A DNA stretch of 64,000 bases from NCBI GenBank assembly GCA_022360715.1, contig JAKSCG010000093.1:1-64000 (forward strand), in the 5' to 3' direction. The translations under genes were made by a program, and so were the position numbers. This document shows positions 2,708 to 22,508 of this stretch, piece after piece. Source of the DNA: Halanaerobiales bacterium (lineage in GTDB: Bacteria > Bacillota > Halanaerobiia > Halanaerobiales > DTU029). The notes under the pieces are model-generated. The model did not search any database and was not told the origin of the DNA. It saw nothing but the letters and a program-made list of their open reading frames with translations. Position 1 is the stretch's first letter; each line of letters begins with the position of its first letter.

Positions 2708-2752
2708 ACCAACCCCTCCTTTTCAAGTACTCAGATAGTTTTTTACCCAGCT

Positions 2753-2781: not shown

Positions 2782-2797
2782 TTCCTGCTCTGAGCAC

Positions 2798-2843
2798 AAT
2801 AAAATAAGCCATCCCTCCTGTCTTGCTCACTTTGGGGATGGCT
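2798..2843 (-). terminator. Terminator of the purine operon, downstream of purH
   Basis: A 9-bp stem (AGCCATCCC, paired with GGGATGGCT) encloses a loop of about 19 nt. On the minus strand it is followed by TATTTTATT. It begins 25 bp after the purH stop and closes the ten-gene purine transcript. Confidence 0.75.
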
Positions 2844-2868
2844 GTTCCAACCAAAACCGACTGCAATC

Positions 2869-4437: not shown

Positions 4438-4472
4438 CTGCTCACTCCCCTGTTCAAGTTTTTAATTAATGA

Positions 4473-5075: not shown

Positions 5076-5089
5076 CTAAACCACCCCTC

Positions 5090-6118
5090 TCACTTTATGG
5101 TCAGTCCTTTTTCACCTTTAATAACTTCACCTAAGCGGTAAGCACTTTCACCCAGATCTTCGGCCGTTTGCCTGATTTCTTCCGCCTGTTCGGCTGCAAC
5201 GATCAATAGTAAGCCTATTCCCATATTAAAGGTACGGTACATTTCCTCTTCCGCGACTCCCCCCATCCGTTCAATCAGATTAAAAATCGGTGGAATCGGC
5301 CAACTTCCCTTTTTAAGCAAAGCCTGACAGCCGGTCGGTAAGATCCGGGGAATATTCTCAATTAACCCCCCGCCGGTGATATGGGCAATCCCTTTTACCC
5401 GGTATTTATTAAGGAGCGCAAGGACCGACTTAACATATATTCGCGTTGGTTTTAGTAACTCCTTTCCCAAATTATCTTCCAGACCATCCGGTCGCTCGGT
5501 CAGTTGATAGTCTCCAACCTCGAAAAAAAGCTTTCTGACCAGGGAATAACCATTACTGTGTAATCCGCTGGAGGCAAGACCAATCAGCTGATCGCCCGGG
5601 CTAATCCCCTGGCCGGTGATTATCTTATCCTGCTCAACTATCCCCACTACAAATCCGGCCAGATCATATTCACTCTTTTGGTAAAAATCGGGTAATTCGG
5701 CTGTTTCGCCCCCGATTAGGGAACAACCCGCTTCCTGGCAGCCCTTACTGATCCCCTGGACGATCTCGGCCACCCGGGCCGGCTGTAATTGACCGATGGC
5801 CAGATAATCCAGAAAAAAGAGGGGTTTTGCCCCCTGGGCCAGGATATCGTTAACACACATCGCCACCAGATCAATCCCGACTGTCGTGTGTTGCTGATGC
5901 ATAAAGGCGATCTTAAGTTTACTGCCCACCCCGTCAGTTCCTGCCACCAGTACCGGTCTTTTCCAGCCGGTTAGCTCCGGGGCAAAGAGTCCGCCAAATC
6001 CCCCCAGACCACCTAAAACAGCAGGACTAAAAGTGGCTTCAACATCCTTTTTAATCATGGCAACTGCTTTTTTACCGGCATCAATATCGACACCGGCACT
6101 TTTATACGTAAACCCCAT
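5090..6118 (-). CDS. purM: Phosphoribosylformylglycinamidine cyclo-ligase (AIR synthetase)
   Basis: PurM closes the imidazole ring, turning FGAM into AIR with ATP. The 342-residue protein begins with the conserved YKSAGVDIDAG segment and has the glycine-rich GGLGGFGGLF stretch. A VAGTDGVGSKLK motif (about 59-70) and LIGGETAELP (about 135-144) mark the PurM ATP-binding fold. Its ATG overlaps the purF stop by one base (TAATG), which points to translational coupling. Confidence 0.97.
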   Translation of the reverse strand: MGFTYKSAGVDIDAGKKAVAMIKKDVEATFSPAVLGGLGGFGGLFAPELTGWKRPVLVAGTDGVGSKLKIAFMHQQHTTVGIDLVAMCVNDILAQGAKPLFFLDYLAIGQLQPARVAEIVQGISKGCQEAGCSLIGGETAELPDFYQKSEYDLAGFVVGIVEQDKIITGQGISPGDQLIGLASSGLHSNGYSLVRKLFFEVGDYQLTERPDGLEDNLGKELLKPTRIYVKSVLALLNKYRVKGIAHITGGGLIENIPRILPTGCQALLKKGSWPIPPIFNLIERMGGVAEEEMYRTFNMGIGLLLIVAAEQAEEIRQTAEDLGESAYRLGEVIKGEKGLTIK

Positions 6119-7542
6119 TACACCCCATCCCCCTCCTTTATTTCAAGTCCTAATGGGTATTCACCGGTAAAACAACCGGTACAGAACCCATAACCGGCTG
6201 CGTTAATTGATTTCAGTAAACCTTCCCGGCTCAAATAAGTCAAAGAGTCAGCCTCAATGTGTCCGGCGATCTCTTCCACTTTCTTTGACTGGGCAATCAG
6301 CTCCTGTCTTTTGGCGGTGTCCAGGCCAAAAAAACAGGGGTGGGTAACCGGGGGCGAAGAAATTGCCACATGTACCTCCCGGGCGCCGGTCTCTCTGACC
6401 CGGTTAATAATCTGTTTACTGGTCGTCCCCCGAACAATTGAATCATCGACCAGGATCACCCGTTTCCCTTTAATAATCTCCCTGATCGGACTAAGTTTAA
6501 TCCTTACCTTCAGATCACGGATTTCCTGGTCAGGCTGGATAAAAGTCCGCCCGACATAGCGATTGCGTAAAATACCTTTGGCAAAAGGGATACCTGATTC
6601 TTCCGCAAAACCCAGGGCAGCTGCTACCCCGGAATCAGGAACCGGAACTACTAGATCCGCCTCTCTCTTCATTTCAACTGCTAACTGCCGGCCCATTTCT
6701 TTGCGGGCCAAATGAATATTCTGACCACCGATATTACTATCCGGTCGCGCAAAATAAATAAACTCAAAAATACAGAATTGATAAGGCCTTTTACTGCAAT
6801 ACTTAATACTCTTAATCCCTTGTTGATTAATTATCACTAACTCCCCAGGCTCTACCTCTTTGATCAAATCTGCCCCGATTAGGTCCAAGGCACAGCTTTC
6901 TGAAGCCACTACATCAATTGAACCGATTTTGCCCAATACCAATGGCCGAAATCCATAAGGGTCTCTTACTGCAACCAAACTATCCCTGGTCATCGCTACA
7001 ATGCTGAAAGCGCCTTTAAGCTGGTGCAGACTCTGGAGCAGAGCATCGATCAGGTTATCTTCAAAGGAATGGGCCACCAGGTGGGCAATTACCTCTGTAT
7101 CTAAGGTTGAGTGAAAAATAGCCCCATGGGATTCCAAATTAAACCTAAGCTCACTGCCGTTGAGCAAATTACCATTATGGGCAAGGGCCAACTCCCCTTT
7201 GATACTGGTGATTAACAGGGGTTGGGCATTGACTAACATGCTTGACCCGGTAGTTGAATAGCGGACATGACCGATTGCCATCTGTCCCGGTAATGAGGCC
7301 AGCTTCTGCTGACTAAAAACGTCGTTAACCAGACCCATCTCTTTATGCAGCTTAAAATCACCCCGGTTATTGACACAAATCCCGGCGCTTTCCTGCCCGC
7401 GGTGTTGCAGGGCCAGTAGCCCCAGATAGGTAAGATTGGCAACATTACAATCTTCCTCCCGGGCCAACACCCCAAAAATCCCACACTCTTCCTCCATTTT
7501 ATCATTTAGTTCTCCATGCGCGCAGATATGCTTTGCTGCCAC
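6118..7542 (-). CDS. purF: Amidophosphoribosyltransferase (glutamine PRPP amidotransferase)
   Basis: PurF makes the first committed step: PRPP plus glutamine to phosphoribosylamine. An N-terminal-nucleophile glutaminase domain starts at Cys20 of EEECGIFGV, so a 19-residue propeptide would be removed. The PRPP-binding site is [13 protein letters not shown]. Four cysteines (YQFCIF, HPCFFG and CTGC near the end) fit the [4Fe-4S] cluster of the B. subtilis-type enzyme, an oxygen-sensitive regulatory feature. I favour GTG at 7542 because AAGGAG lies 11 bases upstream. The start then overlaps purL by 37 bp. The ATG at 7497 (MEEECG) has no clear ribosome-binding site. Confidence 0.96.
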
Positions 7543-9698
7543 TTGTTTTTCATCTCCTTGAGATCACAATCAATCCAGTTATTAATCTGAAATCTCGGCC
7601 GGGAAATCACCTTACCGATAATCTGATAGGGCAGATCATAAGTTGATATTACTTCGGTTAATCTGGCCAGGTCTTTCGGCTCAATTGATATTACTATCCG
7701 GCTGGTCGACTCGCTAAATAACCAGGCCACCGCCGACAGTTTAGTCTGAGCTTCAATCTGCACCCCGAACTCCCGCTCAAAACAGCTTTCGGCCAGACAG
7801 ACCGCCAGACCACCTTCCGAACAGTCATGAGCTGATTTAATCATCCCCAATTTAATTGCCGCTAAACAGGCTCCCTGTACTCTTTGCTCTAGAGCAAGGT
7901 CCAGCTCCGGAACCCGACCCTGCTCCAATCCATAAACCACTTGCAGGTATTCACTGCCACCCAGTTCGTCCCTGGTGGCACCGAGCAGACAGATTAGGTC
8001 CCCCTCAGTTTTAAAATAATGGGTCGTAGCCTGCTTAATATCTTCAAGCAATCCTACCATCCCAATAATCGGCGTTGGATAAATTGCTCCGGCGGGGCTT
8101 TCATTATAAAAACTGACATTACCCCCGGTCACCGGTGTCTCCAGGGCCTGGCAGGCCCGACTGATCCCTTCGACACAGCGGTCAAACTGCCAAAAATTCT
8201 CCGGATTAAGTGGATTGCCGAAATTTAAGCCATCGGTAATCGCCAGTGGTTTACCGCCGGAACAGACAATATTGCGGGCTGCTTCGGCCACCGCAATCGC
8301 CGCTCCCAGCTCCGGATCGAGGTAACAGTAACGGCCATTGCCGTCAATTGTTACCGCTATCCCCTTTTTTGTTCCTTTAATCCGGAGTACTGCTGCGTCA
8401 GAACCCGGCAGTACTACCGTGTTAGTTAAGATCATGTGGTCATATTGCTGATAGACCCATTCTTTACTGGCAATATTGGGTGAGCCAATTAATTCCATTA
8501 AAACCGAACTTAAATCGGTCGGTTCTTTCAATCCGGCTGGTGAAAAGGATTGGACCTGTTCCAGATAAGCCGGTTTCTGCTGCGGCCGTTGATAAACCGG
8601 AGCCTGATCAGTTAATGCACTGACCGGCACCTCGGCCACCAACTCGCCTTGCTCGTAAACCCGGAGGATTTGATCGGCCGTCACCTTGCCGATTACTGCT
8701 GCTTTCAGACCCCACTTATTAAAAATTTTCGCCACCTGTTCCTCCTGACCCTTTTTGGGAACAACCAGCATTCTTTCTTGTGATTCCGATAAAAGGACTT
8801 CATAGGGGGTCATCCCCTCTTCCCTTTTCGGAACAAGCGCAACATCAATCTCAATTCCACTCCGCCCCCGACTGGCCATTTCGGAAGAAGAACTGATTAA
8901 CCCGGCCGCACCCATGTCCTGGATACCGACCAGGGTTCCGCTTTTAATCAGCTCCAGGCTGGCTTCCAGCAGGAGTTTTTCCATAAAGGGATCACCTACC
9001 TGAACCGCCGGTCGATCTGCGACCGATTCTTCGCTAAGCTGGTCGGAAGCAAAACTGGCTCCCTGAATACCGTCCCGGCCAGTTGTAGCACCTACCACCA
9101 TCACTGAATTTCCTACCCCGCTGGCCGTTCCCGTCGCAATATCTTCGTGCTTCATCAAGCCAACACTCATCGCATTAACCAGTGGATTACCCCGGTAGCT
9201 ATCGGAAAAATAGACCTCGCCGGCCACTGTCGGTATCCCGATACAGTTACCATAACCGGCGATACCGGCAACCACCTCTTTAAAAAGATAGCGGACCTGG
9301 GGATGATCTAATTCCCCGAAACGAAGGGAATTAAGCGTAGCAATCGGCCGGGCTCCCATCGTAAAAATATCACGAATAATCCCCCCCACACCGGTTGCTG
9401 CCCCCTGATAGGGTTCAATTGCCGAGGGATGGTTATGACTCTCAACTTTAAAAGATAAGGCCTGTTGATCACCGATATCAATAATTCCGGCGTTTTCACC
9501 CGGTCCCTGTAAGATCCGCTCCCCTTTTGTCGGCAATTTCTTTAGAACCGGTTTGGAGTTTTTATAACTACAATGTTCTGACCACATTACCCCGAATATC
9601 CCCAATTCGGTCTGGTTTGGCTCCCGTCCTAAAATTTCCAAAATCAAATCATATTCTTCCCTGGTTAATCCTTCTTGTTCCCATTGTTTTGCCCTCAT
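7506..9698 (-). CDS. purL: FGAM synthase, large (synthetase) subunit of the PurLQS type
   Basis: PurL aminates FGAR to FGAM using ammonia delivered by PurQ. At 730 residues this is the small, three-subunit form, consistent with separate purS and purQ genes just upstream. Visible motifs include [13 protein letters not shown] near residue 38-50 and two PurM-like ATP-binding halves, the first with [11 protein letters not shown]. The ATG overlaps the purQ stop by four bases (ATGA), so the complex subunits are translationally coupled. Confidence 0.97.
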
Positions 9699-10393
9699 CT
9701 CGCTCCACTCTCTTTCTGCTGATAATTCAATAACGAGTAGAATATCTTCAAACCGTCAGTACCGTTGTTTCCCAAAATGGCTTCCGCGCACCTCTCCGGA
9801 TGGGGCATCATTCCAAAAACATTCCCCGCCTGGTTGCAGATTCCGGCGATATTATCAACTGAACCATTTGGATTTTCCTGTTGATCCCGGTAACGCAAGA
9901 CAACCTGATTGTTAGCCTGTAATAACTCCAGGCCCGGCCGATCAATATAATAATTACCTTCTCCGTGTGCTACCGGGATACTCAGCAGCTCACCGGCCTT
10001 ACAGCAATTGGTAAAAGGTGTTTGATTATTAACAACTGCCAGTTTACTATAACGACAGACAAACTTCAAATTTTGATTTACTTTCATCGCCCCGGGAAGC
10101 AAACCGGCTTCCAGTAAGATTTGAAAACCGTTACAGATCCCCATGACCAGGCCACCATTATTGGCATATTCAATCACCCTTTCCATGATTGGTGCAAAGC
10201 GGGCAATTGCCCCGGAACGAAGATAATCCCCATAGGAAAACCCACCGGGTAAGATTACGCAATCATAGCTAGCAAGGTCGAACTGCTCATCATGCCAAAG
10301 CATTGCTGACGGTTGTTTTAAAATATTACTGGTAACAAAATATACGTCCTGGTCACAATTAGAGCCCGGAAAAGTGATCGTCGCAAATTTCAT
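9695..10393 (-). CDS. purQ: FGAM synthase, glutaminase subunit
   Basis: PurQ is the class I glutamine amidotransferase that feeds ammonia to PurL. The nucleophile is Cys87 in GICNGFQ, and the His/Glu pair is in [10 protein letters not shown] near the C-terminus. The 232-residue length fits the stand-alone PurQ. It overlaps purS by four bases upstream and purL by four bases downstream. Confidence 0.97.
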
Positions 10394-10656
10394 CCGATCC
10401 CTCCGGCACTTTCAACCTGAAAGCTATAATCCTCGATAACCGGATTAGCCAGTAGTCTTTGACACATCTCTTCTACCTGTCTTTCCACCTCATCCTGCTC
10501 TTTGCTACCCTCAATAAGCAATTCCAGATACTTACCGACATGGACATCAACTACATTCTTATAGCCCAGAGAGGTTAAACCGCCCCTGACGGCCTGCCCC
10601 TGTGGGTCGAGAATGCTCTCCTTTAGTTTAATCTCAATCCTGACCACAAATTGCAC
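10390..10656 (-). CDS. purS: FGAM synthase, PurS bridging subunit
   Basis: PurS is the small protein that joins PurQ to PurL. The chain carries KESILDPQG and the conserved [10 protein letters not shown] ending of the family. Two in-frame GTG codons are possible. I chose the one at 10656 (88 residues) because AGGGGA lies nine bases before it and the resulting N-terminus matches the family. The GTG at 10665 overlaps the ribosome-binding site. Either start lies inside the 3' end of purC. Confidence 0.93.
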
Positions 10657-11371
10657 TATGCTCACTCCCCTGTAACCTCTGTAAAATCTCTTGATAAGCC
10701 CCTGCTACATCGCCCAAATCACGACGAAAACGGTCTTTGTCCAATTTCTTTCCACTCCGACTATCCCAGAAACGACATGTATCTGGAGAAATCTCATCAG
10801 CAAGGCAGACTTTACCGTCACTACCGCGACCAAATTCCAGTTTAAAGTCCACCAGAATAATTCCCTTATCTTCCAGATAATCCAGCATAATTTGGTTAAT
10901 CTGAAAAGCCATCTCTTTGATCGCGCTAAGCTCACTTTCGGTAGCCAGACCCTGGGCATAAATATGGTATTCATTAATCATCGGGTCGCCCAGTTCGTCA
11001 CTTTTGTAATAAAACTCCAGGACCGGTTTTGCTAAATTAGTCCCTTCTTCCAAACCCAGCCTTTTGGCTAAACTGCCGGCCACAATATTGCGCATCACTA
11101 CTTCGACCATAATAATATCCAGCTTTCTGACCAGAACCTCTTTTTCACTAAGCTCGGCAATAAAATGAGTCGGGATCCCATTTTCGGCCAGCAGCCGGAA
11201 AAAGATGTTGGAAATAGCATTGTTCAATAACCCCTTATTGCTGATCCGTCCCTTTTTTTCTCCATTAAAAGCAGTGGCATCATCTTTATAGTAGAGCAGC
11301 ACCTGGTCTTGCTCCTCGGTTCGAAAAATTTTTTTGGCTTTGCCCTCATAGAGCATTTCTTTTTTATCCAT
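10634..11371 (-). CDS. purC: SAICAR synthetase
   Basis: PurC joins CAIR and aspartate using ATP. The 245-residue protein has the conserved N-terminal [10 protein letters not shown] and the later VDFKLEFGR and [14 protein letters not shown] motifs that bind ATP and substrate. The ATG follows GAGGGGG with good spacing. Its substrate CAIR needs PurE, or PurK plus PurE, neither of which is in this operon. Confidence 0.97.
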
Positions 11372-11384
11372 AAATTGATCCCCC

Positions 11385-12782
11385 TCAAGTATTTAAAGCT
11401 AATTGCTCTCGCCAGTAGTTAACAACCCGCTCGGTCTTCTCGGCAGCAATCCCGGTATATTTTTCCGGATGGAGTAGTACCTCCCTTTGTTTTGGTGTAA
11501 AAATATCCCAGTAAGGTTTCAATTCTGCTTTGACCTGGACTAACTCTCTTAAAGTAGTTTTGCGCTGGCGGGCCTCCAGGGTCAACTTCCTTACTACTTC
11601 ATGTGCATCAGGGTGGCCGTAAGAAGCCAATAAGATATAGAGGGGCTCCGCTATGATCAACTCTCGATTCAGCTCTAGATTACGCCGAATACTTTGGTGA
11701 TCAACGGCCAGTTGCTGTAAAACCCCGCTCAAGCGCTTAGCTGCCGACAACAGTCCGACGATGATTTCCGGGTTAAACCTACTGGAGGCAGAATTAGTTA
11801 AATCGCGTTGGTGTTCAGAAAGCTGATCCTGATAAAGCGTCAGCATTCTGGGCATAAATTGTTTCCACAGGCTTTTGATGTTCTCATAGTTAACCGGATT
11901 CCGTTTATGGGGCATAGTGGAAGAGCCGACCTGGTCTTCGGCGAAATACTCTCCTATCTCCGCGATCTCCGACCGTTGCAAGTGCCGCATATCATCACTT
12001 AAACTGGCTAATACCCCAAAACAAGAGATCAAGGAATGGAAAAAATCGGTTAAGAACTCTGGTTCAACAATCTGGGTGGAGTGACTGGCCGCTTCCAGAC
12101 CTAGTTCTGCCAAGACCTGGGCTTCAAACTCCTCCGGTTCAACGAAAAATAAGTGGCTGGCATTATAAGCCCCGACCGCACCGGCTATTTTCCCCTTTAA
12201 TCGTTGACTACTTTCTTTAATCGCTTCGATTCGATTACCGAGACGACTAACATACTCGGCGACGGCAAAACCAAAGGTAATTGGCACAGCATGCTGACCG
12301 TGGGTTCGGCCGATCTGCACCGTCTCCTTTTCCCGGATGGCAATTTCCATTAAAATTGTTTGCAATTTTAGTAAAGTCGGGATGATCAACTCCCGGCTAA
12401 CTTCTTTATAACAGAGGGAGTTAGCCGTATCGACAATATCGAACGAAGTAGCGGTAAAATGAACATAAGGGCGCGCCTCACTACTTACTCTTTGCTGAAT
12501 ACAGTTGACCAGGGCCCGGATGTTATGCCTGGTTTTCCCTTCTTCCGCATAAACCTCTTCCGGCCGCAATCCCCGGACCGCTGCTTCGATTTGGTCGGCA
12601 ATCGCTTGCGGACAAATCCCCTGCCGGACTAAGACCTTGACCAAGGCCACCTCTACCCTCGCCTGATACCTTATCTTGGCCTCCTCTGATAGGTATTTCG
12701 AGTACTGTGCATATTCGGCTTGATTTAGTGAGTAACGGTGGTCCAGCGGGCTAAGATTGGCAAAAATATTCCGACTTAACAC
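11385..12782 (-). CDS. purB: Adenylosuccinate lyase
   Basis: PurB splits SAICAR to AICAR and adenylosuccinate to AMP. The fumarase/aspartase-family signature [10 protein letters not shown] (about residue 288-297) is intact, and a [14 protein letters not shown] segment supplies a catalytic His region. The start is GTG with GAGAGG upstream. At 465 residues it is somewhat longer than the roughly 430-residue B. subtilis form. The N-terminal NLSPLDHRY resembles the longer subfamily. Confidence 0.95.
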
Positions 12783-12834
12783 CAGACTGCCTCTCTCATT
12801 ACTTTTAAATCCGAACCACTAGCCATTAAAAATC

Positions 12835-14160
12835 CTACCTTGGCCATGCTAAACCACTCTCCTTTTTATTTTTGCTTACTGAATTAAGCCCTGATTTAAA
12901 GATGCGCCAGCCAATATCTTTGCGGTAACGGACCCCCTTAAAACTGATTTGCCGGACCGCCTGGTAAACATTAGCTTGTGCTAAGTTAAAATCATTGGCT
13001 AAGGCGGTAATCGTCAGCACCCTTCCCCCGGCTGTAAGCAGTTCCTTCCCCGGACAGGCTGTCCCGGCCTGAAAGACCCTGATACCTTTCCGGGCCGAGG
13101 CCTCCGGTATTCCCCTAATTATTTCTCCGGTTTGATATTTTACCGGATAACCCTCCGCAGCCAGCACAACACAGAGGGCTTTTTGGTCCAGCCACTCGAC
13201 CGGCACTTCCGCCAACTTTTCAGTCCTGATCGCTTCAATAATTTCAATTATATCCGTCTTAAGCAGGGGTAAAACTACCTGTGCTTCCGGATCACCAAAA
13301 CGGACGTTATACTCCAGCACCCTGGCCTGGCCGTTACTGATCATCAAACCACAGTACAGAACACCTTGATACTTGATTCCTTCCTCTCTTAAAGCCTGAA
13401 CAGTGGGGAACAATATTTTTGCCGCTATCTCTTCCCTTAGCTCTTTAGTCAATAGTGGCGCCGGGGCATAAGCCCCCATTCCGCCGGTGTTGGGTCCCCG
13501 GTCACCCTCATAAGCAGCTTTATGGTCCTGTGAAGGTAAGAGCGGAATAATCGTCTTCCCGTCGACAAAAGCCATTACGGTTACTTCTTCTCCCGGCAAA
13601 TATTCCTCAATAATGATCCTTTGTCCGGCTTTACCAAAAACTTGCTCAATCAGGAACGCCCGGACAGCCTGGCAAGCTGCCGGTACGCTTTGCGCTACTA
13701 TTACTCCCTTCCCGGCCGCCAGTCCTTCCGCTTTGATCACCAGCGGAGTTCCCTGCTCCTTTATATATGTAATTGCTTGCTCTGCTTGACTAAAAACCTG
13801 AAAATCAGCAGTCGGTATCCGGTATTTTTTCATTAAGTTCTTGGCGAATACCTTACTTCCCTCCAAACGGGCAGCCTTTTGCACCGGTCCAAAAATTTTT
13901 AAACCTTCCTCGGAAAAAGCATCAACTATCCCGGCCACTAAAGGGGCTTCTGGGCCGACCAAGGTTAGATCGATTTTTTTGCTTTTAGCAAACCCAATTA
14001 AACCGGCCAGATCAGTCACCTCGATTGGTACATTCGTGGCCAGTTCAGCCGTACCGGGATTTCCCGGAGCTACATAAATTTCTGTTACCTTTTTACTGGT
14101 GGAAAGCTTCCAGGCTAAGACATGTTCGCGGCCGCCACTTCCGATCACCAATACCCTCAT
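12835..14160 (-). CDS. purD: Phosphoribosylamine-glycine ligase (GAR synthetase)
   Basis: PurD condenses phosphoribosylamine and glycine with ATP. The N-terminal VIGSGGREHVLAWK motif and the ATP-grasp core (KAEGLAAGKGV and RGPNTGGMGAY) are clear. The family usually ends soon after the IGWR motif. Here about 25 extra polar residues follow, giving 441 in all. It is the first gene of the operon, read from the riboswitch leader. In many Bacillota purD is last, so this order is unusual. Confidence 0.97.
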   Translation of the reverse strand: MRVLVIGSGGREHVLAWKLSTSKKVTEIYVAPGNPGTAELATNVPIEVTDLAGLIGFAKSKKIDLTLVGPEAPLVAGIVDAFSEEGLKIFGPVQKAARLEGSKVFAKNLMKKYRIPTADFQVFSQAEQAITYIKEQGTPLVIKAEGLAAGKGVIVAQSVPAACQAVRAFLIEQVFGKAGQRIIIEEYLPGEEVTVMAFVDGKTIIPLLPSQDHKAAYEGDRGPNTGGMGAYAPAPLLTKELREEIAAKILFPTVQALREEGIKYQGVLYCGLMISNGQARVLEYNVRFGDPEAQVVLPLLKTDIIEIIEAIRTEKLAEVPVEWLDQKALCVVLAAEGYPVKYQTGEIIRGIPEASARKGIRVFQAGTACPGKELLTAGGRVLTITALANDFNLAQANVYQAVRQISFKGVRYRKDIGWRIFKSGLNSVSKNKKESGLAWPR

Positions 14161-14173
14161 CAGTATCCCTCCC

Positions 14174-14238
14174 CAAATAAATAAGCCCAGGCAGAAAGAC
14201 CTACTGTCAAAATGAGTAGAACCTCCCCGCCTGGGCTT
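14174..14238 (-). terminator. Leader terminator of the purine operon (riboswitch expression platform)
   Basis: A 10-bp outer stem (AAGCCCAGGC at 14183-14192 pairs with 14229-14238) encloses an inner CTACT/AGTAG hairpin. On the minus strand it is followed by TATTTATTT. It lies between the purine aptamer and purD, the usual place for a transcription-terminating platform. The U-tract is interrupted, so termination strength is uncertain. Confidence 0.65.
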
Positions 14239-14332
14239 TTATCCCTTCGGTGTGATATATAAATACCTGTACCGCTTGGACCTGCCATTACCGTTTTTCA
14301 TCCACTGTAATGCGGAACCCTAAGTACACTTC

Positions 14333-14401
14333 CCCCATAGTCAGGTAGTTTACGGCTACCCGGTAGAGACTTGTGGGCCATATTCCCACGATTATATGAG
14401 G
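14333..14401 (-). promoter_or_regulatory. Purine riboswitch aptamer, guanine type
   Basis: On the minus strand P1 pairs CCTCATA (14401-14395) with TATGGGG (14339-14333). P2 is GTGGG/CCCAC with loop AATATGG. P3 is GGTAG/CTACC, and the conserved core TATAATC, TCTACC and GACTAT is intact. The core pyrimidine in GACTAT is C, as in guanine/hypoxanthine aptamers (adenine aptamers have U). It lies in the leader of purD and should switch off the whole operon when guanine is abundant. The motif is seen directly; ligand choice is from family knowledge. Confidence 0.93.
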
Positions 14402-14436
14402 TTATTATTTATTTTAGTTATTAAACTTCCACCCCT

Positions 14437-14465
14437 ATCATAACAAATCTACTTTCTTTAGTCAA
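14437..14465 (-). promoter_or_regulatory. Promoter of the purine operon
   Basis: TTGACT (14465-14460) and TATGAT (14442-14437) are separated by exactly 17 bp on the minus strand, about 35 bp before the riboswitch. This is a strong sigma-A-like promoter. It begins just past the stop codon of the methyltransferase gene. Confidence 0.85.
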
Positions 14466-14471
14466 ATTAAA

Positions 14472-15068
14472 TTATTGAAAACTGCCTCCGATCAGCACAA
14501 ACATTGCTTGATCATCCACTTCCTTGAGCACTTTTAAGCCAGCCCGATGATAATATTGTCGAATGATTTCCATTGCCGGCAAATTATCTCCTTTAACCGG
14601 GTCAGCTGACCTTTGATGAAGATGGTTGATCATTTCTCTACTTTGGGAATGACAAATGGTAAGTTTACCACCCTTTTTTAATTTCTGTGAAAGTTTAGCA
14701 ATTGCTGTTGCTTTGCATTGGAAATGCGGAAAGCTCGAATAACAAATAATATGATCATAGCTGGCTTGATCCCCGTTGCCTTCCAAAACATCGCCACATT
14801 CAAACTCCACATTATCATACTTGTTTTTTTCCTGAGCAATTTCAATCATTTTTTCGGCCAGATCGATCGCTTTAATATGGCCTAATGAGGTGGTTCTTCG
14901 GTATAGGCTGGGAATCAATACACCGGTACCTGTACCGACATCCAGGACTTTACTACCTTGTTGTATCCCCACTAAGTTCAAAATAAATTCAACTTTATCC
15001 ATATCATGTTGACAGATTTCATCCCATGAGGATGCGAGCCCATTAAAAAAATCTTTTGCTGACTTCAC
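14472..15068 (-). CDS. Class I SAM-dependent methyltransferase
   Basis: The 198-residue protein has motif I VLDVGTGTG at about 41-49, an acidic strand-2 end (AIDLAEKM), and motif II/III-like segments. The fold is therefore the Rossmann methyltransferase type (Methyltransf_11/25-like). The substrate is unknown. It starts at GTG with AGGAGAG upstream, 23 bp after hypA, and is the last gene of the hypB-oxidoreductase-DUF5692-hypA cluster. That position suggests modification of a cofactor, protein or metabolite connected with the cluster. Function inferred only from context. Confidence 0.8.
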   Translation of the reverse strand: MKSAKDFFNGLASSWDEICQHDMDKVEFILNLVGIQQGSKVLDVGTGTGVLIPSLYRRTTSLGHIKAIDLAEKMIEIAQEKNKYDNVEFECGDVLEGNGDQASYDHIICYSSFPHFQCKATAIAKLSQKLKKGGKLTICHSQSREMINHLHQRSADPVKGDNLPAMEIIRQYYHRAGLKVLKEVDDQAMFVLIGGSFQ

Positions 15069-15091
15069 TTAAACTCTCCTATCAATTGTCG

Positions 15092-15433
15092 CTAACATGC
15101 AATAATTTCTTTGATCATAAACTCCTTGCCCCCTAATAACTCCCAGCTTTCGCTTCCACAGTGCAGGCATTTAGAGTTATTGGCCAGCAGATTAAAAACA
15201 CGATTACACTTTTGGCAAATAGCGTTGCCGGGAAGTATTTCAATCTTTAACTTCGTCTCCTGTAATAGCGTACCGTCGACTGCCGCCGGATAACATGCCT
15301 CAACATAATGGGGAATAATTGAGGAGAGTTCTCCGATTTGCAGAACCAATGTATCAATTTTGGATAAACCGTTTTCCCGGGCAAGATCTTCTACTGTCTT
15401 GATGATTTCAATCACAACACCTAATTCATGCAA
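15092..15433 (-). CDS. hypA: HypA-type nickel metallochaperone
   Basis: The 113-residue protein opens with MHEL, whose His2 and Glu3 are nickel ligands in HypA. It carries the two-CxxC zinc site (CQKC at about 73-76 and CLHC at about 90-93). HypA normally delivers nickel, with HypB, to [NiFe]-hydrogenase. Here no hydrogenase or hypCDEF gene is seen, and hypB is four genes upstream in the same operon. The nickel acceptor is unknown. Confidence 0.92.
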   Translation of the reverse strand: MHELGVVIEIIKTVEDLARENGLSKIDTLVLQIGELSSIIPHYVEACYPAAVDGTLLQETKLKIEILPGNAICQKCNRVFNLLANNSKCLHCGSESWELLGGKEFMIKEIIAC

Positions 15434-15470
15434 ATGTACACACCTCTAGTCATCCAGGTTTTAAAACTAA

Positions 15471-16382
15471 CTAATTTCCGCTATGGATTGCTTGCTTGGC
15501 GGCGGTGGTTGCACTCCAGATTTCGTCTTTTAACGGATGACGACGATATTTGACAATCCGGTATAATTGCCAAATCGCCAGCAGTCCATTAAGGGCTAAA
15601 GATATCCCGGCCAGCGTCCAGTTAGCGGCAGGATTATAGCTAAGACCTACGTTAAAAGTGCCGGCGCCAAAGAAATACGGAAAGGTCATTATCCACAACA
15701 TCCAAAAGGATAAAGTATGAGCACGGTTTTGCATCCAGGTTCCTTTCGCCCAGAATAACGCCGGAATAATTGGGGCAATATTCAGCGCTGCCGCCGAATA
15801 AAAAGCATTGGCCGGTGCACAGGAGTAGACATAGGAGATATTCCAGACAGCATAGGCGATTATATACATCATAGTCTGATCAGGCCAGACCATATCTTTA
15901 CGTTTACCCTTAGTTCCGTAAATCCCGCTCCAACCACAGATCAAGAGAATGCTCAAAATGCCGGCGGCCGCATTGAGGTAGTTCCAACCACCGGAGATAT
16001 AATTTACCCCGTCAACTATTCCGTTAAAGCCGGCCAGCCCCACCTGTAATTCCCGGATTGCCGCTTCCAGGATATTAATTCCCAGGATCGCCGGAACCAG
16101 CTTAACGTACCATTTATGCCTTTGCGGGTAATCGGTAAATCTGATTACCATAAAGATAATACTTCCGGCCAGGGCCGAATATACCTTGACCCAGGCAAAC
16201 CAAGATAAAAGTTCACTTCCGTCTTGGATACTCCAAACCACGGTCAGGATTACCGGTAAGACGATAAAAATAGCAATACTTACGCCCTTGCTGAGCCGAA
16301 CCAATTCGTTTAACCCAATCAAAATTACCAAAACACCTATCCACATCACTATATTATACCAAGGAATCGCTTCGAAAAACAT
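15471..16382 (-). CDS. Polytopic membrane protein, DUF5692-like
   Basis: The 303-residue protein is almost wholly hydrophobic, with about eight to nine likely transmembrane helices and a basic C-terminal tail. Glycine- and tryptophan-rich stretches (YISGGWNYLNAAAG) and a cysteine within a segment reading YVYSCAPANAFYSAA stand out. From memory it resembles the uncharacterised DUF5692 family, but I could not check. The start ATG has AGAAAGGAG before it. It sits between a large Fe-S flavoprotein and hypA, so a role in electron transfer or metal/substrate transport for that cluster is possible. Confidence 0.7.
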   Translation of the reverse strand: MFFEAIPWYNIVMWIGVLVILIGLNELVRLSKGVSIAIFIVLPVILTVVWSIQDGSELLSWFAWVKVYSALAGSIIFMVIRFTDYPQRHKWYVKLVPAILGINILEAAIRELQVGLAGFNGIVDGVNYISGGWNYLNAAAGILSILLICGWSGIYGTKGKRKDMVWPDQTMMYIIAYAVWNISYVYSCAPANAFYSAAALNIAPIIPALFWAKGTWMQNRAHTLSFWMLWIMTFPYFFGAGTFNVGLSYNPAANWTLAGISLALNGLLAIWQLYRIVKYRRHPLKDEIWSATTAAKQAIHSGN

Positions 16383-16419
16383 AAATTACACTCCTTTCTG
16401 ATTTTACACCTTTAAAAGA

Positions 16420-19110
16420 TTAACCCTTTTTGAAAAGTCCAGTCAGTGAATTTTTTACTTTTTTAACGGCAATTCTCCCCTTGCGTTTCAGGACATGTTT
16501 CATAATCGTCGGTCGCAGTTCACTCAGCTCAACACTAGCATCATCATATTTTCTGACCAGTGAAATCGCCTCAAATTTACACTTGATCACACAGGCCCCG
16601 CAACCCACACATAGGTATTCATCCGCAACCGTAACTCCACAGCCCAGACAACGTTCCGTTTCCTTAATCACCTGTTCTTCGGTCAGTGTAGTACGTAAAT
16701 CGCGGAAGGTTCCTTTCGATTTACTGGCATCAACATGGCTTGTTCTTTGTCTGGGCAGGCGATCATATCCCCCCAGATCGAGATCGGCCTTATCAAAACT
16801 GTGGTAGGCTCTTTTAGTCCGACCGATCAGTAAACTGTGGCCCGGTTGAACATAGCGATGGATGGAAATCGCCCCTTCTTTGCCCATGGCAATCGCATCA
16901 ATCGCAAACTTGGGTCCGGTTAAGGCATCACCACCGGCAAAGACATCAGGTTCCCCGGTCTGGCCGGTAGTAGCATCGGCTTTAATTGTCTGATTGGAAT
17001 TCAGTTCGATTTTGCTTCCCTGTAGCAAGTTACCCCAGTCCATGGCCTGACCTACTGAGATCAACACATGATCGGCCTTGACGATCTTGGTCTTTTTTTC
17101 ATCATATCGGGGGTTAAACCGGTTATGTTGATCAAAGACGGCAATACATTTTTTGAATTCGATACCGGTGACTCGTCCCTTTTCTACCAAAATGCGCTTG
17201 GGTCCCCATGAATTGTTGACTTTAATTCCCTCAGCCAATGCTTCTTCAATTTCTTCATCCAGGGCCGGCATTTCTTTCCTGCTTTCCAGCGTATACATCT
17301 CAACCGGTGAGGCCCCAATCCGTATAGCTGTTCGAGCTACATCGATTGCAACATTTCCGCCGCCAATCACAATCGTCGTTCCTTCCATTTTCACCGCTTG
17401 TTTGCGATTGACTCTCCGTAAAAATTCAACACCGGTAATAACCCCGGTCGCATCTTCACCTTCGAGCCCCAGCTTTTTACCGTCCTGGGCCCCGATGGCC
17501 AGATAAAATGCTTCGTATCCTTGATTTCTCAGTTCATTCAGGCTTAGATCTTTACCAACTTCAACCCCTGTTTTAAACTCCACTCCCAATTCTCGTAAAA
17601 TATCTATTTCCGCCTCAATTACATCTTTTTCCAAACGGAAGGAGGGGATTCCCAGTGTTAACATCCCACCCAATACTTTTTCTTTCTCAAAGACCGTTAC
17701 TTGATAACCGTCAATCGCTAAGTAGTAAGCACAGGAAAGTCCGCAAGGTCCGGCCCCGATCACGGCAATTTTATTTCCGTATTGATGTTTTATTCTAGGT
17801 AGATAGCGCTGTTCCATGTCCAAATCTTGGGCGGCAATGAATTTCTTGATATCATCAATCGCGATCGGATCATCAATATCGGTTCTGGTACAGGCTGATT
17901 CACAGTTTTTCGGACAGATCCGTCCACAAACTGCCGGGAAAGGATTCTCTTCCTTGATCAGTTCCAGGGCTTCCGTATATCTTCCTTGGGCAGCCAGTTT
18001 AATATAACCCTGAATACCAATATGGGCAGGACATTCTGCTTTACAGGGACTTGTCCCGGTCTCAACCACAACTTGTCTATTTAGCCGATAATCGGGATTC
18101 CATTTGTCCGGACCCCATTCTGTATCATGGGGCAGCTGGCGTTCCTGTTCCACGAACGGAGTTTTGGTACAGAGCTTTTGCCCTAAACGCAGGGCATTAA
18201 CACAACAATTTTCCACACATTCGCCACAGGCCACACATTTATCTTGATCTACCTGGGAAACATAGTTAGAACGCATCATATCAGGATTTAAGAACATCTC
18301 GGCACTTCTTAAAGACAGGCATGCACAGCCACAACAATTACAAATGGCATGGGTTTTGCCGGGGCCGTCTGTATTCGGGATCTGATGCATCAAGCCGTTT
18401 TCTTCGGCTTTTTTGATAATTTCAAAAGCCTCTTCCCGGGTAATCTGGCGACCGCGACCGGTTCGGATATAATATTCAGCAGCATGTCCCATCTGAATAC
18501 ACATATCCTCCTTTAAATGACCGCAACCTTCTCCCATTACTTCTCTTGAGGTCCGGCAAGAACAATCAGAAACGGAAAAAATACTGTTTTCATTGAGGTA
18601 TTTGGACAGTTCTTCATAGGATGCTCGCCTGGTCTCACCCTCAATTGCTTGTTCGATCGGGATAACCCGCATTAAACCCTTACCGACAGGAAAATTACCT
18701 GCTGTCTTCGGCCCTCTGGCTCGGCCGTATTCTTCAAAAGCCTCGGCAATTTGCGGAAACTTTTTAACATTTTCCTTGTTATTGACCATCATTTCCATAT
18801 GGCCGGGAACCCAGAGATCCAGCCAGTATTTATCAACACCATTAATTTTATTGACAAAAGCAACGCCGGCAACTGCTATTTCCCATAAGTATTGCTCTGT
18901 TTCCGCTACCGATTTACCACACAGTAACGCCACTTCTTCCGCACTCTGGGGTTTGCGTAATTCCAGACAAAGGGCTACTTCGGCCATTTCTTCTGTCACA
19001 ACCGGTTCCAGGATTTTATATTCGGGATTTTCCGGTTTAATCTCTGATTTCGACCCCCGTTTTGTTCTACTAATCTTATTGGCAAGATCAAGGACTTTTT
19101 CTTTGACCAT
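16420..19110 (-). CDS. FAD-dependent oxidoreductase with multiple Fe-S clusters (GltD-like)
   Basis: This 896-residue fusion has four parts. Residues 1-270 form a cysteine-rich unit with CSCR (183-186), GCGH, DMC and CNCCGCAC (257-264). Then comes a ferredoxin motif CVACGECVENCC (292-303). A GltD/NADPH-glutamate-synthase-small-subunit-like core follows, with Cys motifs at 356-407, FAD motif IGAGPCG (451-457) and an NAD(P) site IGGGNVAIDVART (about 590-605). The C-terminus has two more Cys clusters (CLGCG, CVGCGACVIKC). The ATG at 19110 has GGGAGG upstream. It probably passes electrons between NAD(P)H and ferredoxin-like centres. The partner is unknown. It lies between hypB and the DUF5692-like gene. 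Confidence 0.85.
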   Translation of the reverse strand: MVKEKVLDLANKISRTKRGSKSEIKPENPEYKILEPVVTEEMAEVALCLELRKPQSAEEVALLCGKSVAETEQYLWEIAVAGVAFVNKINGVDKYWLDLWVPGHMEMMVNNKENVKKFPQIAEAFEEYGRARGPKTAGNFPVGKGLMRVIPIEQAIEGETRRASYEELSKYLNENSIFSVSDCSCRTSREVMGEGCGHLKEDMCIQMGHAAEYYIRTGRGRQITREEAFEIIKKAEENGLMHQIPNTDGPGKTHAICNCCGCACLSLRSAEMFLNPDMMRSNYVSQVDQDKCVACGECVENCCVNALRLGQKLCTKTPFVEQERQLPHDTEWGPDKWNPDYRLNRQVVVETGTSPCKAECPAHIGIQGYIKLAAQGRYTEALELIKEENPFPAVCGRICPKNCESACTRTDIDDPIAIDDIKKFIAAQDLDMEQRYLPRIKHQYGNKIAVIGAGPCGLSCAYYLAIDGYQVTVFEKEKVLGGMLTLGIPSFRLEKDVIEAEIDILRELGVEFKTGVEVGKDLSLNELRNQGYEAFYLAIGAQDGKKLGLEGEDATGVITGVEFLRRVNRKQAVKMEGTTIVIGGGNVAIDVARTAIRIGASPVEMYTLESRKEMPALDEEIEEALAEGIKVNNSWGPKRILVEKGRVTGIEFKKCIAVFDQHNRFNPRYDEKKTKIVKADHVLISVGQAMDWGNLLQGSKIELNSNQTIKADATTGQTGEPDVFAGGDALTGPKFAIDAIAMGKEGAISIHRYVQPGHSLLIGRTKRAYHSFDKADLDLGGYDRLPRQRTSHVDASKSKGTFRDLRTTLTEEQVIKETERCLGCGVTVADEYLCVGCGACVIKCKFEAISLVRKYDDASVELSELRPTIMKHVLKRKGRIAVKKVKNSLTGLFKKG

Positions 19111-19144
19111 CGGTCTTTCCTCCCCCGTTAATTTTGGCAATCAA

Positions 19145-19816
19145 TTATTTTTTGTTCCAGTTTGTAACTTCGCTCCGTAACCAGTCGGTCCACTCCGCAA
19201 TTCCCTCTCCTGTTTTAGCCGATATCGGGATGATCTTGAGCTGGGGATTCAATTTTTTGGCCCGCTGCTGGACTGCCGCTAAATCAAAACTAAAATAGTC
19301 CAGGGCATCGATCTTATTAATTAATAAAAGATCAACCAGTGCAAACATGGCCGGATATTTTAGCGGTTTATCGTCTCCTTCCGGTACACTTAGGATCATG
19401 GCATTTTTGGCTGCCCCGGTATCAAATCCGGCCGGACAGACCAAATTACCTACATTTTCCAGAATAACAAAATCAAGATCTGCTGTCCCCAGTGCTAACA
19501 GGCCTTGCTTCGCCATAACGGCATTAAGATGGCACATCCCACCGGTGTGCAACTGGATAACTTTTATCCCTGTCTTCGCCACCGCAGCAGCATCGACCGC
19601 TGAGTCAATATCGGCTTCTAACACCCCGATCTCCATTTCGTCTTTCAAAGCTTCAATTGTTCTCAAAACAGTTGTGGTCTTACCTGAACCAGGTGATGAC
19701 ATCAAATTTAGCAAAAACGTCTGCTCTTTTCGCATTTCTGTCCGCAGCAAAGCTGCCTGACGATCATTGTCTTCAAAGACCCTTTTTTTAATCTCAATAA
19801 CCTTAAAACTATCCAT
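19145..19816 (-). CDS. hypB: HypB-type nickel-insertion GTPase
   Basis: HypB is a GTPase that drives nickel transfer from HypA. The P-loop is SSPGSGKTT at about 40-48. The metal-binding Cys-His of GGMCHLNA and the Cys of GNLVCPAGFD match the dimer-interface site. A LLINKIDALD guanine-specificity motif follows. No histidine-rich N-terminal tail is present. I place the start at the ATG (19816), giving 223 residues, because GAGGGAG precedes it; the GTG 15 bp upstream has no ribosome-binding site. It is the first gene of a five-gene operon with its own strong promoter. Confidence 0.93.
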   Translation of the reverse strand: MDSFKVIEIKKRVFEDNDRQAALLRTEMRKEQTFLLNLMSSPGSGKTTTVLRTIEALKDEMEIGVLEADIDSAVDAAAVAKTGIKVIQLHTGGMCHLNAVMAKQGLLALGTADLDFVILENVGNLVCPAGFDTGAAKNAMILSVPEGDDKPLKYPAMFALVDLLLINKIDALDYFSFDLAAVQQRAKKLNPQLKIIPISAKTGEGIAEWTDWLRSEVTNWNKK

Positions 19817-19900
19817 CCCATGCTCCCTCACTTCATGATTTTGTTATGCCCTCTGTTCGCCGCGGTACCTGTTCAATCTTGTTATTATTTTCACATCATC

Positions 19901-19929
19901 AGTATATTGAAAAAAACAAAAACTGTCAA
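19901..19929 (-). promoter_or_regulatory. Promoter of the hypB operon
   Basis: TTGACA (19929-19924) and TATACT (19906-19901) lie 17 bp apart on the minus strand. The -35 overlaps the T-run of the upstream terminator. The leader to the hypB ATG would be about 80 nt. Confidence 0.85.
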
Positions 19930-19961
19930 AAAAACAAGAACCTTGATATATCAAGGTTCTT
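19928..19961 (-). terminator. Terminator downstream of the flavin oxidase gene
   Basis: A perfect 26-base palindrome at 19936-19961 (arm AAGAACCTTGATA) is followed on the minus strand by GTTTTTTT. It ends transcription from the flavin-oxidase unit just before the hypB promoter. Confidence 0.8.
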
Positions 19962-19980: not shown

Positions 19981-20050
19981 ATAGTTTACACTTTTAAATA
20001 CTACAACTCTCTCCTCCAGCCGAATTCAGCCCAAGATAAGTGTAAACTAT
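19981..20050. repeat. 70-bp element bounded by 13-bp perfect inverted repeats
   Basis: ATAGTTTACACTT at 19981-19993 is the exact reverse complement of AAGTGTAAACTAT at 20038-20050. The 44-bp centre holds an additional small dyad around GAATTC. It sits between the flavin-oxidase stop and that gene's terminator. It could be a small MITE-like remnant or a structured 3' UTR. No second copy was noticed in this window. Confidence 0.6.
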
Positions 20051-20089
20051 ACTTGAAAATAAAATAACTACATAAATCCTCAAAAACCA

Positions 20090-21343
20090 TTAAAAATATT
20101 GATTAAGCAAATAGTTGGCATAGCGAAGGCAATTTTCCATCGAAACAGTGCTCATGATCTCTCCCGCCAGGAAAACGTTGTGCTTGCCCTGCATCGCTTC
20201 CATCTTTTGATAGAATCCTCTTTGTAAGGCTACGGAATCAACATAAGGGGATTGCTTCCAGCATTTAAGCTGATATAACCTGGGATTAGCAATACCCAGT
20301 CGCAATAAATCGTTTTCAATAACCTTTAAGGAAGCAAGCCGGGAGTAGTCAGGGTGACGATAGGCATAAACCGTTAACAGATGATCTTGATGGCTTGATT
20401 CCCAACGGGAATTCCAGATCATGATATGACCTTTATTTTGGTTGGACAGGTGCTCGAGTATGACTCCACACCCTTTGGGAAGTTTGTCGACAATAAAGGC
20501 ATAAACGTAATAGTCTTGATATTTTATACCCCCTAAAAAGTTTATCATCTCCTCATCTTGCTCATAAAGATCAGAAAATTGCTCAAGGGGGGCGGTAATT
20601 ACCACCCGTTCGAATTCCAGCTGTTCAAACTCGGTCTGAACAGTTAAGCGCTGACTATTCGACCCGGCAATTTTTATTACTTTTTGTCCTAAGCGTATAT
20701 TTTTAATTTTCTGACTTAACGCATCAATCAAAGTAGAAACACCGGTCTTCCAGGTAAAAAGTTCCGGTAAATCAAGTAATGACATGATTGTATCATAATT
20801 CAAGATCCGTAAAACATACAGGGCCGGAACTTGCTCAATATCTCCCAGTCCGTAACTGGTAAAATGATGCTGATAGATCCTTTTTAAGACCCTAAACCGA
20901 TGGTAATCACACCACTGGGAAAATGGCATCATTAGTGGCTGCTCAAGGTCTTCAATCTTAGCCTTTTCTAAAGAGCTATATTCGGCCAAAGTAACCGGGA
21001 GGCGCTCGACTTCTTCCAGAAAAGCACTGAGTACCTTTTTCGGAATTTGCATGATTTTATTGCCGGATCGATCATAGTAAACCCGCGTCAAATTAGGACC
21101 GTCACTTTTAATGTTAAATTCTTTGAGCAGGGCTTGCAGATGCTGTTGAACCGGCAAACCGAAAATAGCACCTAACTCATATGATTTACCCCGATACCAG
21201 ATCGTAAATAACTTACCGCCTAAGCGATTGTCTTTTTCCAAAACAGTAACATTTCGATAACCTTTTTTCCCCAAACCAACTGCTATAACCAGCCCGGAAA
21301 GACCTCCGCCAATCACTGCCACTCTACAGTCCGCTTTCTTCAA
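20090..21343 (-). CDS. FAD-dependent amine-oxidase / protoporphyrinogen-oxidase-like protein
   Basis: The 417-residue protein begins with a dinucleotide-binding motif AVIGGGLSGLVIAVGLGKKG (about 9-28) followed by VLEKDNRLGGK. It ends with a FAD-closing segment FLAGEIMSTVSMENCLRYA, as in the flavin amine oxidase superfamily. Substrate cannot be told; HemY-like, carotenoid-like and polyamine oxidases share this fold. It starts at TTG, but AAGGAGGT lies eight bases upstream. Only 17 bp separate it from the transposase-derived gene before it, so the two are co-transcribed. Confidence 0.8.
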   Translation of the reverse strand: MKKADCRVAVIGGGLSGLVIAVGLGKKGYRNVTVLEKDNRLGGKLFTIWYRGKSYELGAIFGLPVQQHLQALLKEFNIKSDGPNLTRVYYDRSGNKIMQIPKKVLSAFLEEVERLPVTLAEYSSLEKAKIEDLEQPLMMPFSQWCDYHRFRVLKRIYQHHFTSYGLGDIEQVPALYVLRILNYDTIMSLLDLPELFTWKTGVSTLIDALSQKIKNIRLGQKVIKIAGSNSQRLTVQTEFEQLEFERVVITAPLEQFSDLYEQDEEMINFLGGIKYQDYYVYAFIVDKLPKGCGVILEHLSNQNKGHIMIWNSRWESSHQDHLLTVYAYRHPDYSRLASLKVIENDLLRLGIANPRLYQLKCWKQSPYVDSVALQRGFYQKMEAMQGKHNVFLAGEIMSTVSMENCLRYANYLLNQYF

Positions 21344-21360: not shown

Positions 21361-22464
21361 TTAGGTTGATTTAGTAAAGTCAATGTTATAGTCAATAATC
21401 TTCCCGTTTAAAGCAGGTTTATTTGCTCCCACTAAGACCAAAAGCCAGAGCGGGATAGTGTCAAAATCGACATTGTTTTGAGCGGCTTTTTTTAGAATAA
21501 CTTCTGCCGGCACTTTTCCGGTATTATATCCACTGGTGATCTTTCTGGAGAAATTGTATTCCCTTAAAAACTTGTGAAAGGCCTTTTCAATTTTAATAAA
21601 AGAATCAAACGACCGCTCCCGGCCGATTTTGTTATAAAAATCTTGCAGGAGGAATTGATAAAAATCGTCACCCATACCCAACCGGCAATCTTTTTCCGGT
21701 TCAATAAAACAATGATTGATCTTTAAAGCGGTAATAATTTCTTTATATTTGTTGTTCTTGACAAAATAAGAGATAAACTCTTTGCTTTTCTTAGTAATTA
21801 AATGCTCAATTTTTAAATTGAATGTCTTGAGTAAATAAACGATTTTGCGCTCAAAAAAATACCAAATATCAATATCTTGCTTTTTGTTATATAGTTTTAC
21901 CACCCCTAATTTGGAATAAAGATCATACAAACTGTATTGATAAATTTTACCGATTAACTCGAATTTACCGACAAAATCAATGCGCTGAATGACAAAATGA
22001 CCTGGATAGGTTGCTTTTTGGGCCTGATGATAAAATGGTTTAACCCCTTGACGCTGCTGATTCAACTGGGCATGAATGGCTTTGCTTTTCGAGTAGCTAA
22101 TCCGCTGAACTTTTCTTGATAAATTATGCCGTTTCAAGACATTGTATATGCCCGATTCTCCGATCTCAAAACCTTCAGACTTCAGTTCATAGTAGATCCT
22201 TTTCGGTCCGTCTTCCGGAAAGCGTTGGACATATGCTAAAATCTCATCTTCAATGATCTTACTCACTTTATTAGGCATCTGCGGCTTAAGCGGTTCTTTA
22301 TTTTTCAATCCGGGCATGCCGTGCTTCTGATAAGACCTGTACCAATTATAAAATGTGGTTCGTGAAATACCAAACACCTCGCACGTTCGGGAAACATTAT
22401 TGACTTTCAAAGCATGTTTGATAATCATGTATTTACTGTGGGCATTAAAACCTTCTGATTTCAT
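21361..22464 (-). CDS. Transposase-derived HTH/integrase-fold protein with degenerate catalytic site
   Basis: About residues 10-120 contain tandem helix-turn-helix segments like those of IS481/IS3-type transposases (VSRTCEVFGISRTTFYNWYR; then a second winged part). An RNase-H/integrase-like domain follows, with first-Asp motif IDFVG (Asp about 163). The TDNGSEF motif that holds the second catalytic Asp is TKKSKEF (about 224-230), and no clear third Glu motif remains. So strand transfer is unlikely, and the frame is otherwise intact over 367 residues. No flanking terminal repeats were found. ATG 22464 has AAGGAGG seven bases upstream. Likely a domesticated DNA-binding protein acting with the downstream flavin oxidase. 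Confidence 0.75.
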   Translation of the reverse strand: MKSEGFNAHSKYMIIKHALKVNNVSRTCEVFGISRTTFYNWYRSYQKHGMPGLKNKEPLKPQMPNKVSKIIEDEILAYVQRFPEDGPKRIYYELKSEGFEIGESGIYNVLKRHNLSRKVQRISYSKSKAIHAQLNQQRQGVKPFYHQAQKATYPGHFVIQRIDFVGKFELIGKIYQYSLYDLYSKLGVVKLYNKKQDIDIWYFFERKIVYLLKTFNLKIEHLITKKSKEFISYFVKNNKYKEIITALKINHCFIEPEKDCRLGMGDDFYQFLLQDFYNKIGRERSFDSFIKIEKAFHKFLREYNFSRKITSGYNTGKVPAEVILKKAAQNNVDFDTIPLWLLVLVGANKPALNGKIIDYNIDFTKST

Positions 22465-22508
22465 CACCAGGCCTCCTTGCCATACTATGGTTAACGCTCA
22501 CTAAAAAA

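Follow-up and report, generated by a model that had tools for sequence, protein, structure and literature searches.

Why would a bacterium in whose genome no hydrogenase is found keep the nickel-delivery pair HypA and HypB, and keep it in one operon with a large iron-sulfur (Fe-S) flavoprotein and a polytopic membrane protein? The question is raised by a locus of a Halanaerobiales bacterium (assembly GCA_022360715.1, contig JAKSCG010000093.1), which lies in the 64,000-nucleotide stretch of DNA analysed here (the window). An initial annotation had described one promoter driving five genes and had supposed that nickel goes to something made or served by the operon, perhaps its membrane protein, or to an enzyme encoded elsewhere. 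Our analysis suggests that the operon may be a module for the hydrogenation of unsaturated lipids, built on an IsrA-type reductase that is matured by HypA and HypB and accompanied by an isomerase and a DUF5692 membrane protein. We put the probability of this reading at roughly 0.48. Its direct basis is gene content, protein families, synteny, conservation, co-occurrence, a set of invariant cysteines and the lack of hydrogenase maturation.

The five genes are all on the minus strand, in the order hypB, Fe-S flavoprotein, DUF5692, hypA and methyltransferase, separated in turn by 34, 37, 37 and 23 bp. The operon and promoter first described are thus found again, with 11 of 12 consensus positions in the promoter. 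The limits drawn at that promoter were too narrow, since they left out two genes upstream (22467–20090), which belong to the unit and are listed further below.

19145–19831, minus strand: hypB, HypB nickel GTPase chaperone (TIGR00073, 237 bits, cut-off 121)
16420–19110, minus strand: IsrA-like Fe-S flavoprotein, 896 residues from its ATG (Fer4_20, Pyr_redox_2 and two Fer4 regions)
15471–16382, minus strand: DUF5692 polytopic membrane protein, 303 residues (PF18948, E 7.6e-97)
15092–15433, minus strand: hypA, whose TTG start gives the (M)HE nickel motif (PF01155, E 6.7e-30)
14472–15068, minus strand: class I S-adenosylmethionine-dependent methyltransferase by family match, last gene of the operon
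19901–19929, minus strand: sigma-70-type promoter TTGACA-17-TATACT, read from 19929 to 19901

Both chaperones look functional, because their metal-site and P-loop residues are conserved. H2, E3 and the zinc cysteines C73, C76, C89 and C92 of HypA, of which the assembly has a single copy, are invariant in 17 homologues, and the P-loop, C100, H101 and C132 of HypB are invariant in 14. The metal-binding and GTPase motifs are those of [NiFe]-hydrogenase maturation. Unlike in that system, the assembly (G000, 4.03 Mb) shows no HypD and no NiFe large subunit; nor does it show a urease alpha subunit, or a carbon monoxide dehydrogenase (CODH) above the cut-off of 478, the one partial match reaching 31 bits. 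Because the assembly is 92% complete, the absence of these proteins is likely but not proven. The same pattern was seen among 18 genomes with module genes. HypD and NiFe hydrogenase are missing in 15 of them, CODH in nine and any convincing urease in 17 (two others have matches of 36–40 residues at 26–30 bits). All of these are missing in five genomes (G000, G136, G398, G404 and G405), and in a sixth, G400, if its 36-residue urease-like match is dismissed; in G405 the flavoprotein and DUF5692 occur with no hypAB within the stretch examined. The neighbourhood recurs across Clostridia, Tissierellia, Spirochaetia, Anaerolineae and Bacteroidia and is not random, and its presence in genomes that lack hydrogenase, CODH and urease agrees with the check that the initial annotation had proposed. 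HypA and HypB here are not for a hydrogenase, and most likely they serve something in this operon.

The flavoprotein consists of an N-terminal domain with six cysteines (Cys6), a ferredoxin cluster, a GltD/NfnB-like module for NAD(P)H and flavin adenine dinucleotide (FAD), and C-terminal ferredoxin clusters. It has the Fer4_20 and Pyr_redox_2 core in common with the NfnB and GltD flavoprotein subunits and differs from them by having the Cys6 domain at its N-terminus and further ferredoxin clusters at its C-terminus, and the operon has no glutamate synthase or NfnA partner. In architecture it comes closest to IsrA, which Kronen et al. (2023, PMC10134865) describe as the putative isoprene reductase of Acetobacterium wieringae. 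IsrA has about 900 residues; two pairs of [4Fe-4S] clusters accompany its FAD/NAD(P)H module, and its N-terminal Cys6 site is proposed as the destination of nickel. The two CxC motifs of that site, 180/182 and 254/256 in IsrA, are found at 184/186 and 258/260 in the window protein, a constant offset of 4. All six cysteines (184, 186, 205, 258, 260 and 265) are invariant in 23 sequences, a set that takes in standalone N-terminal-domain relatives of about 25% identity. Judged by architecture and CxC spacing, the protein is probably an IsrA relative of the clade-9 type. Because of this architecture and the invariant six-cysteine site, the flavoprotein, not DUF5692, is the best candidate for the nickel client. 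The earlier proposal is therefore supported in placing the client in the operon, and not supported in favouring the membrane protein, in which no Cys or His is invariant across 62 homologues and which occurs mostly without hypAB; its membrane redox system is conjectural. A model of the N-terminal domain is uninformative on the metal site, since its confidence is low (predicted local distance difference test (pLDDT) score 73) and a fold search with it matched only winged-helix regulators, weakly (E 0.01 or worse).

The isr operon of A. wieringae strains ISORED-2 and Y encodes a flavoprotein of this type with a Cys6 site, the clade-9 protein IsrA, together with HypA, HypB and a ferredoxin, and its host genome has neither NiFe hydrogenase nor hypCDEF (PMC10134865); in the assembly here, no NiFe large subunit and no HypD were found. 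In the isr operon hypA is present twice and the ferredoxin has a gene of its own, whereas the operon here has one hypA, DUF5692 and a methyltransferase gene. Among the neighbours of 988 IsrA homologues, HypA was counted at 73%, HypB at 56%, DUF5692 at 40% and TetR at 21%, so that the core association of hypA, hypB, flavoprotein and DUF5692 is already published as the IsrA neighbourhood (PMC10134865). A further difference is the isomerase and the transposase-derived protein encoded upstream here; of the additional parts, that study discusses DUF5692 only. As far as we found, an IsrA-type module had not been linked before with a fatty-acid isomerase and a domesticated transposase.

The two upstream genes, and the elements that lie between them and hypB, are as follows.

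20090–21343, minus strand: PAI-like FAD protein of 417 residues (PDB 2b9w/2bab match), putative fatty-acid double-bond isomerase, the substrate being conjectural
21361–22467, minus strand: IS481-transposase-derived protein of 368 residues (NF033577, 137 bits), candidate regulator
19936–19961: terminator-like element between the isomerase gene and hypB, a perfect palindrome of 26 bp with a T run after it on the minus strand
20038–20054: 17-bp operator-like dyad AAGTGTAAACTATACTT, with near copies at the corresponding place in relatives

The terminator-like palindrome probably separates the isomerase gene from the hypB operon. The product of the isomerase gene matches PDB 2b9w/2bab over its full length (E 1.6e-56; the next amine-oxidase-fold family reaches 7.6e-7). 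PDB 2BAB is the polyunsaturated fatty acid isomerase PAI of P. acnes (PMC6162330). PAI, a cytoplasmic FAD enzyme, acts on C18 free fatty acids and converts linoleate to trans-10,cis-12 conjugated linoleic acid. The window protein shares its FAD fold, and R87, invariant in 13 homologues, aligns with PAI R88, which we take to be the substrate-gate arginine. At the position of PAI F193, presumably also a gate residue, the window protein has L189, and F stands in 90% or more of the aligned sequences. The identity to PAI is low, isomerase activity is predicted from sequence, and the gene is, unlike that of PAI, linked to a reductase operon.

A profile search placed the isomerase family in seven of 289 phylum genomes. 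All seven have DUF5692, which occurs in 11 of 398 genomes (hypergeometric p 1e-11), and six have the full flavoprotein, which occurs in eight of 398 (3e-10); DUF5692 in turn is present in seven of the eight flavoprotein genomes (9e-12). The p values for the isomerase family treat the 289 genomes as a subset of the 398, as the shared labels suggest. The isomerase is tied to DUF5692 in particular, because the two occur together with no hypAB or flavoprotein in three Paenibacillus-type loci (L041, L064 and L066) and in G022.

The label DUF5692-like proved an understatement: the membrane protein is a true member of PF18948, with 324.6 bits against a curated cut-off of 27 at the E value given above. 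Its AlphaFold2 model is confident (pLDDT 90.5), and a fold search of the PDB with it gave no match below E 0.1, the best being 0.11. More than 577 DUF5692 loci are present in GTDB representatives. Elsewhere DUF5692 is mostly a lone gene, and a TetR regulator is often its neighbour in Actinobacteria, lactobacilli and Exiguobacterium; most sampled loci have no hypAB, whereas here it sits in a hypAB operon. The gene company of DUF5692 points to lipids. Transporter, lipid-presenting partner and membrane-bound isomerase are all candidate roles. Biochemical work on Clostridium and Butyrivibrio has long shown linoleate isomerases that are membrane-bound; a literature search found no paper tying DUF5692 to these or to the Bifidobacterium linoleate isomerase BBI. 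According to PMC10134865, an oleate hydratase adjoins the IsrA homologue of A. woodii, an isomerase not being mentioned. This neighbour is a second, independent link to lipids. A regular-expression search for oleate hydratase near the module loci gave nothing usable.

The IS481-derived protein scores 137.5 bits against NF033577, below the cut-off of 224. Inspection of the alignment showed that it keeps the helix-turn-helix and has lost the TDNG catalytic motif, with TKKS-type residues in its place, and it is apparently catalytically dead. In each of the 15 loci with such a gene, the isomerase gene is its direct neighbour. In the region from the isomerase gene to hypB, a 13-bp inverted repeat, ATAGTTTACACTT and AAGTGTAAACTAT, lies at 19981–19993 and 20038–20050 with 44 bp between its arms, and the second arm is the core of the 17-bp dyad. 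Copies of the dyad with one or two mismatches occur at the corresponding place in four other loci (L030, L031, L032 and L033), and AGTGTAAA is the top shared 8-mer of the isomerase-hypB intergenic regions, present in nine of 11 loci, a level reached in none of 200 shuffles. We infer that the transposase-derived protein and the dyad form a regulator and operator pair.

The proposed pathway would run as follows. The PAI-like flavoenzyme would move a double bond within a polyunsaturated fatty acid, or a lipid of similar kind, and so yield a conjugated diene, while DUF5692 would hold, import or present the lipid at the membrane. The FAD of the flavoprotein would take hydride from NAD(P)H, and the [4Fe-4S] chain would carry the electrons on to the Cys6 metal site of the N-terminal domain, the place at which the diene is reduced at its conjugated C=C bond. 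The metal of this site, most likely nickel, would be delivered by HypB and HypA, and the transposase-derived protein bound at the dyad upstream of hypB would set expression. Substrate and direction in this scheme are what we infer from the parts. Its physiological purpose could be an electron sink for energy use or the detoxification of polyunsaturated fatty acids, both being possible. Stated in its most specific form, with a PAI-type isomerase making dienes, an IsrA-type Ni-Fe-S enzyme saturating them as electron sink or detoxification, and DUF5692 either handling lipids or being itself a membrane-bound linoleate isomerase, nickel-dependent fatty-acid biohydrogenation is a doubtful proposition that we hold tentatively.

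Several observations weigh against the hydrogenation module. The activity precedent among homologues is the proteogenomic case for IsrA only, and Acetobacterium strains with 47–49%-identical homologues do not reduce isoprene (PMC10134865). No PAI-like gene occurs within the stretch examined in about one third of the module loci (e.g. L074, L092, L107 and L108). The pairing of the Cys6 domain with HypAB, which counts in favour of the module, has its limits. In support of it, 11 genomes of the phylum sample have a strong HypB (E<1e-50) and no HypD, and in nine of these, by adjacency read by hand from tables, the HypB gene neighbours that of the flavoprotein or of a standalone N-terminal-domain relative; the HypB of G143 sits on a 3.4-kb contig. 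The lower, curated HypB cut-off adds about five divergent HypB-like genes, which have no such neighbour where inspected. Moreover, hypAB is absent from all 20 further unselected loci of the standalone domain. We therefore rejected the idea that every N-terminal-domain relative pairs with HypAB: the domain alone is no predictor, because most of its standalone relatives have no hypAB nearby. Finally, the genome here has eight LarA-family homologues (e.g. on contigs C175, C92, C88 and C115), the most among the 18.

These homologues bear on the alternative that HypA and HypB feed nickel enzymes elsewhere, their place in the operon being a regulatory convenience. The LarA family (nickel-pincer racemases) is found in 12 of the 18 module genomes and CODH in nine, and LarA-family enzymes could be additional HypAB clients. 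G404 has the module and, besides hydrogenase, HypD, CODH and urease, also lacks LarA, as does G400 apart from its urease-like match; LarA as the sole client was accordingly rejected for at least one module genome. The adjacency of hypAB and the flavoprotein is kept across several phyla, and in the IsrA host LarE and AcsF are there to serve the other nickel enzymes (PMC10134865). With these facts, distant clients seem quite improbable. That the nickel client, or a nickel-handling membrane redox protein, is DUF5692 itself would fit its tight adjoining to hypA and the flavoprotein, but is very improbable given its lack of invariant Cys or His, the hundreds of loci at which most of those sampled have no hypAB, and G167, which has the flavoprotein and HypAB without DUF5692. 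We consider it the least probable that the pair loads zinc or cobalt: HypA does have a zinc site and falls below the TIGR00100 equivalog cut-off (75 against 88 bits), but its MHE motif and the HypB residues C100, H101 and C132 are invariant, and NicO, an annotated nickel transporter, adjoins hypAB in G124.

A closer competitor keeps the reductase and its nickel supply and changes the substrate to an isoprene-like compound, small hydrocarbon or terpene, or to some other unsaturated metabolite, with the isomerase acting on it or being a separate neighbour. IsrA itself is tied to isoprene, no other likely redox candidate having been induced by it, and strain Y reduces 1,3-butadiene too (PMC10134865); as isoprene is a conjugated diene, the induction counts for the lipid module as well. 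Several module loci are also without the isomerase family. We nevertheless think such a substrate unlikely, as PAI acts on C18 free fatty acids, the isomerase of the phylum sample is confined to DUF5692 genomes, and a membrane protein suits a lipid more than a volatile.

Related loci show how the parts are otherwise arranged. G056 and G095 each have three flavoprotein copies and one HypB, adjoining the third copy. Next to this copy and the only strong HypB, both (L140 and L141) have a very divergent DUF5692 relative (24% identity), and in L140 an Old-Yellow-Enzyme-like reductase follows. In G124, one cluster (L147, 7531–13325) holds a standalone Cys6-domain relative, an amine-oxidase-fold flavoprotein, a 256-residue protein with no Pfam match, hypA, hypB and nicO, and no GltD-like module; this grouping speaks for the proposed module. 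L154 of G147 (62–18646) has four Cys6-domain relatives, two of them followed by hypA, amid genes for acyl-CoA dehydrogenase, CoA-transferase and proteins like electron-transfer flavoprotein quinone oxidoreductase. The methyltransferase is an optional part of the module; its homologues follow hypA in L026, L031 and L032 and hypAB in L143. In the first three of these loci, an energy-coupling factor (ECF) transporter S component (PF12822) lies between hypA and the methyltransferase gene; the window has no ECF gene. Plasmid searches gave few matches. One of them, the mobilizable-typed record OY725877.1 of the gut species Subdoligranulum variabile (L203), has a compact set of hypB, flavoprotein, hypA and DUF5692. 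Downstream of the operon here, a purine riboswitch (RF00167, 94 bits, 14318–14419, minus strand) lies before purine genes, including a purD-like gene at 14160–12835, and it marks the downstream boundary of the operon.

Nickel enzymes are few, and if the hydrogenation module is real, the hydrogenation of unactivated conjugated C=C bonds by one of them would add a new type of reaction to nickel catalysis. Anaerobic hydrogenation of conjugated linoleate by Clostridia and rumen bacteria has been known biochemically since the 1960s–70s; to our knowledge, which here does not rest on an exhaustive check, no gene is established for its reductase step. The module would supply a candidate isomerase and a candidate reductase for this process, and it would suggest a specific substrate for DUF5692 and for those IsrA homologues that are uncharacterised, in carriers that include the gut organism Subdoligranulum variabile.

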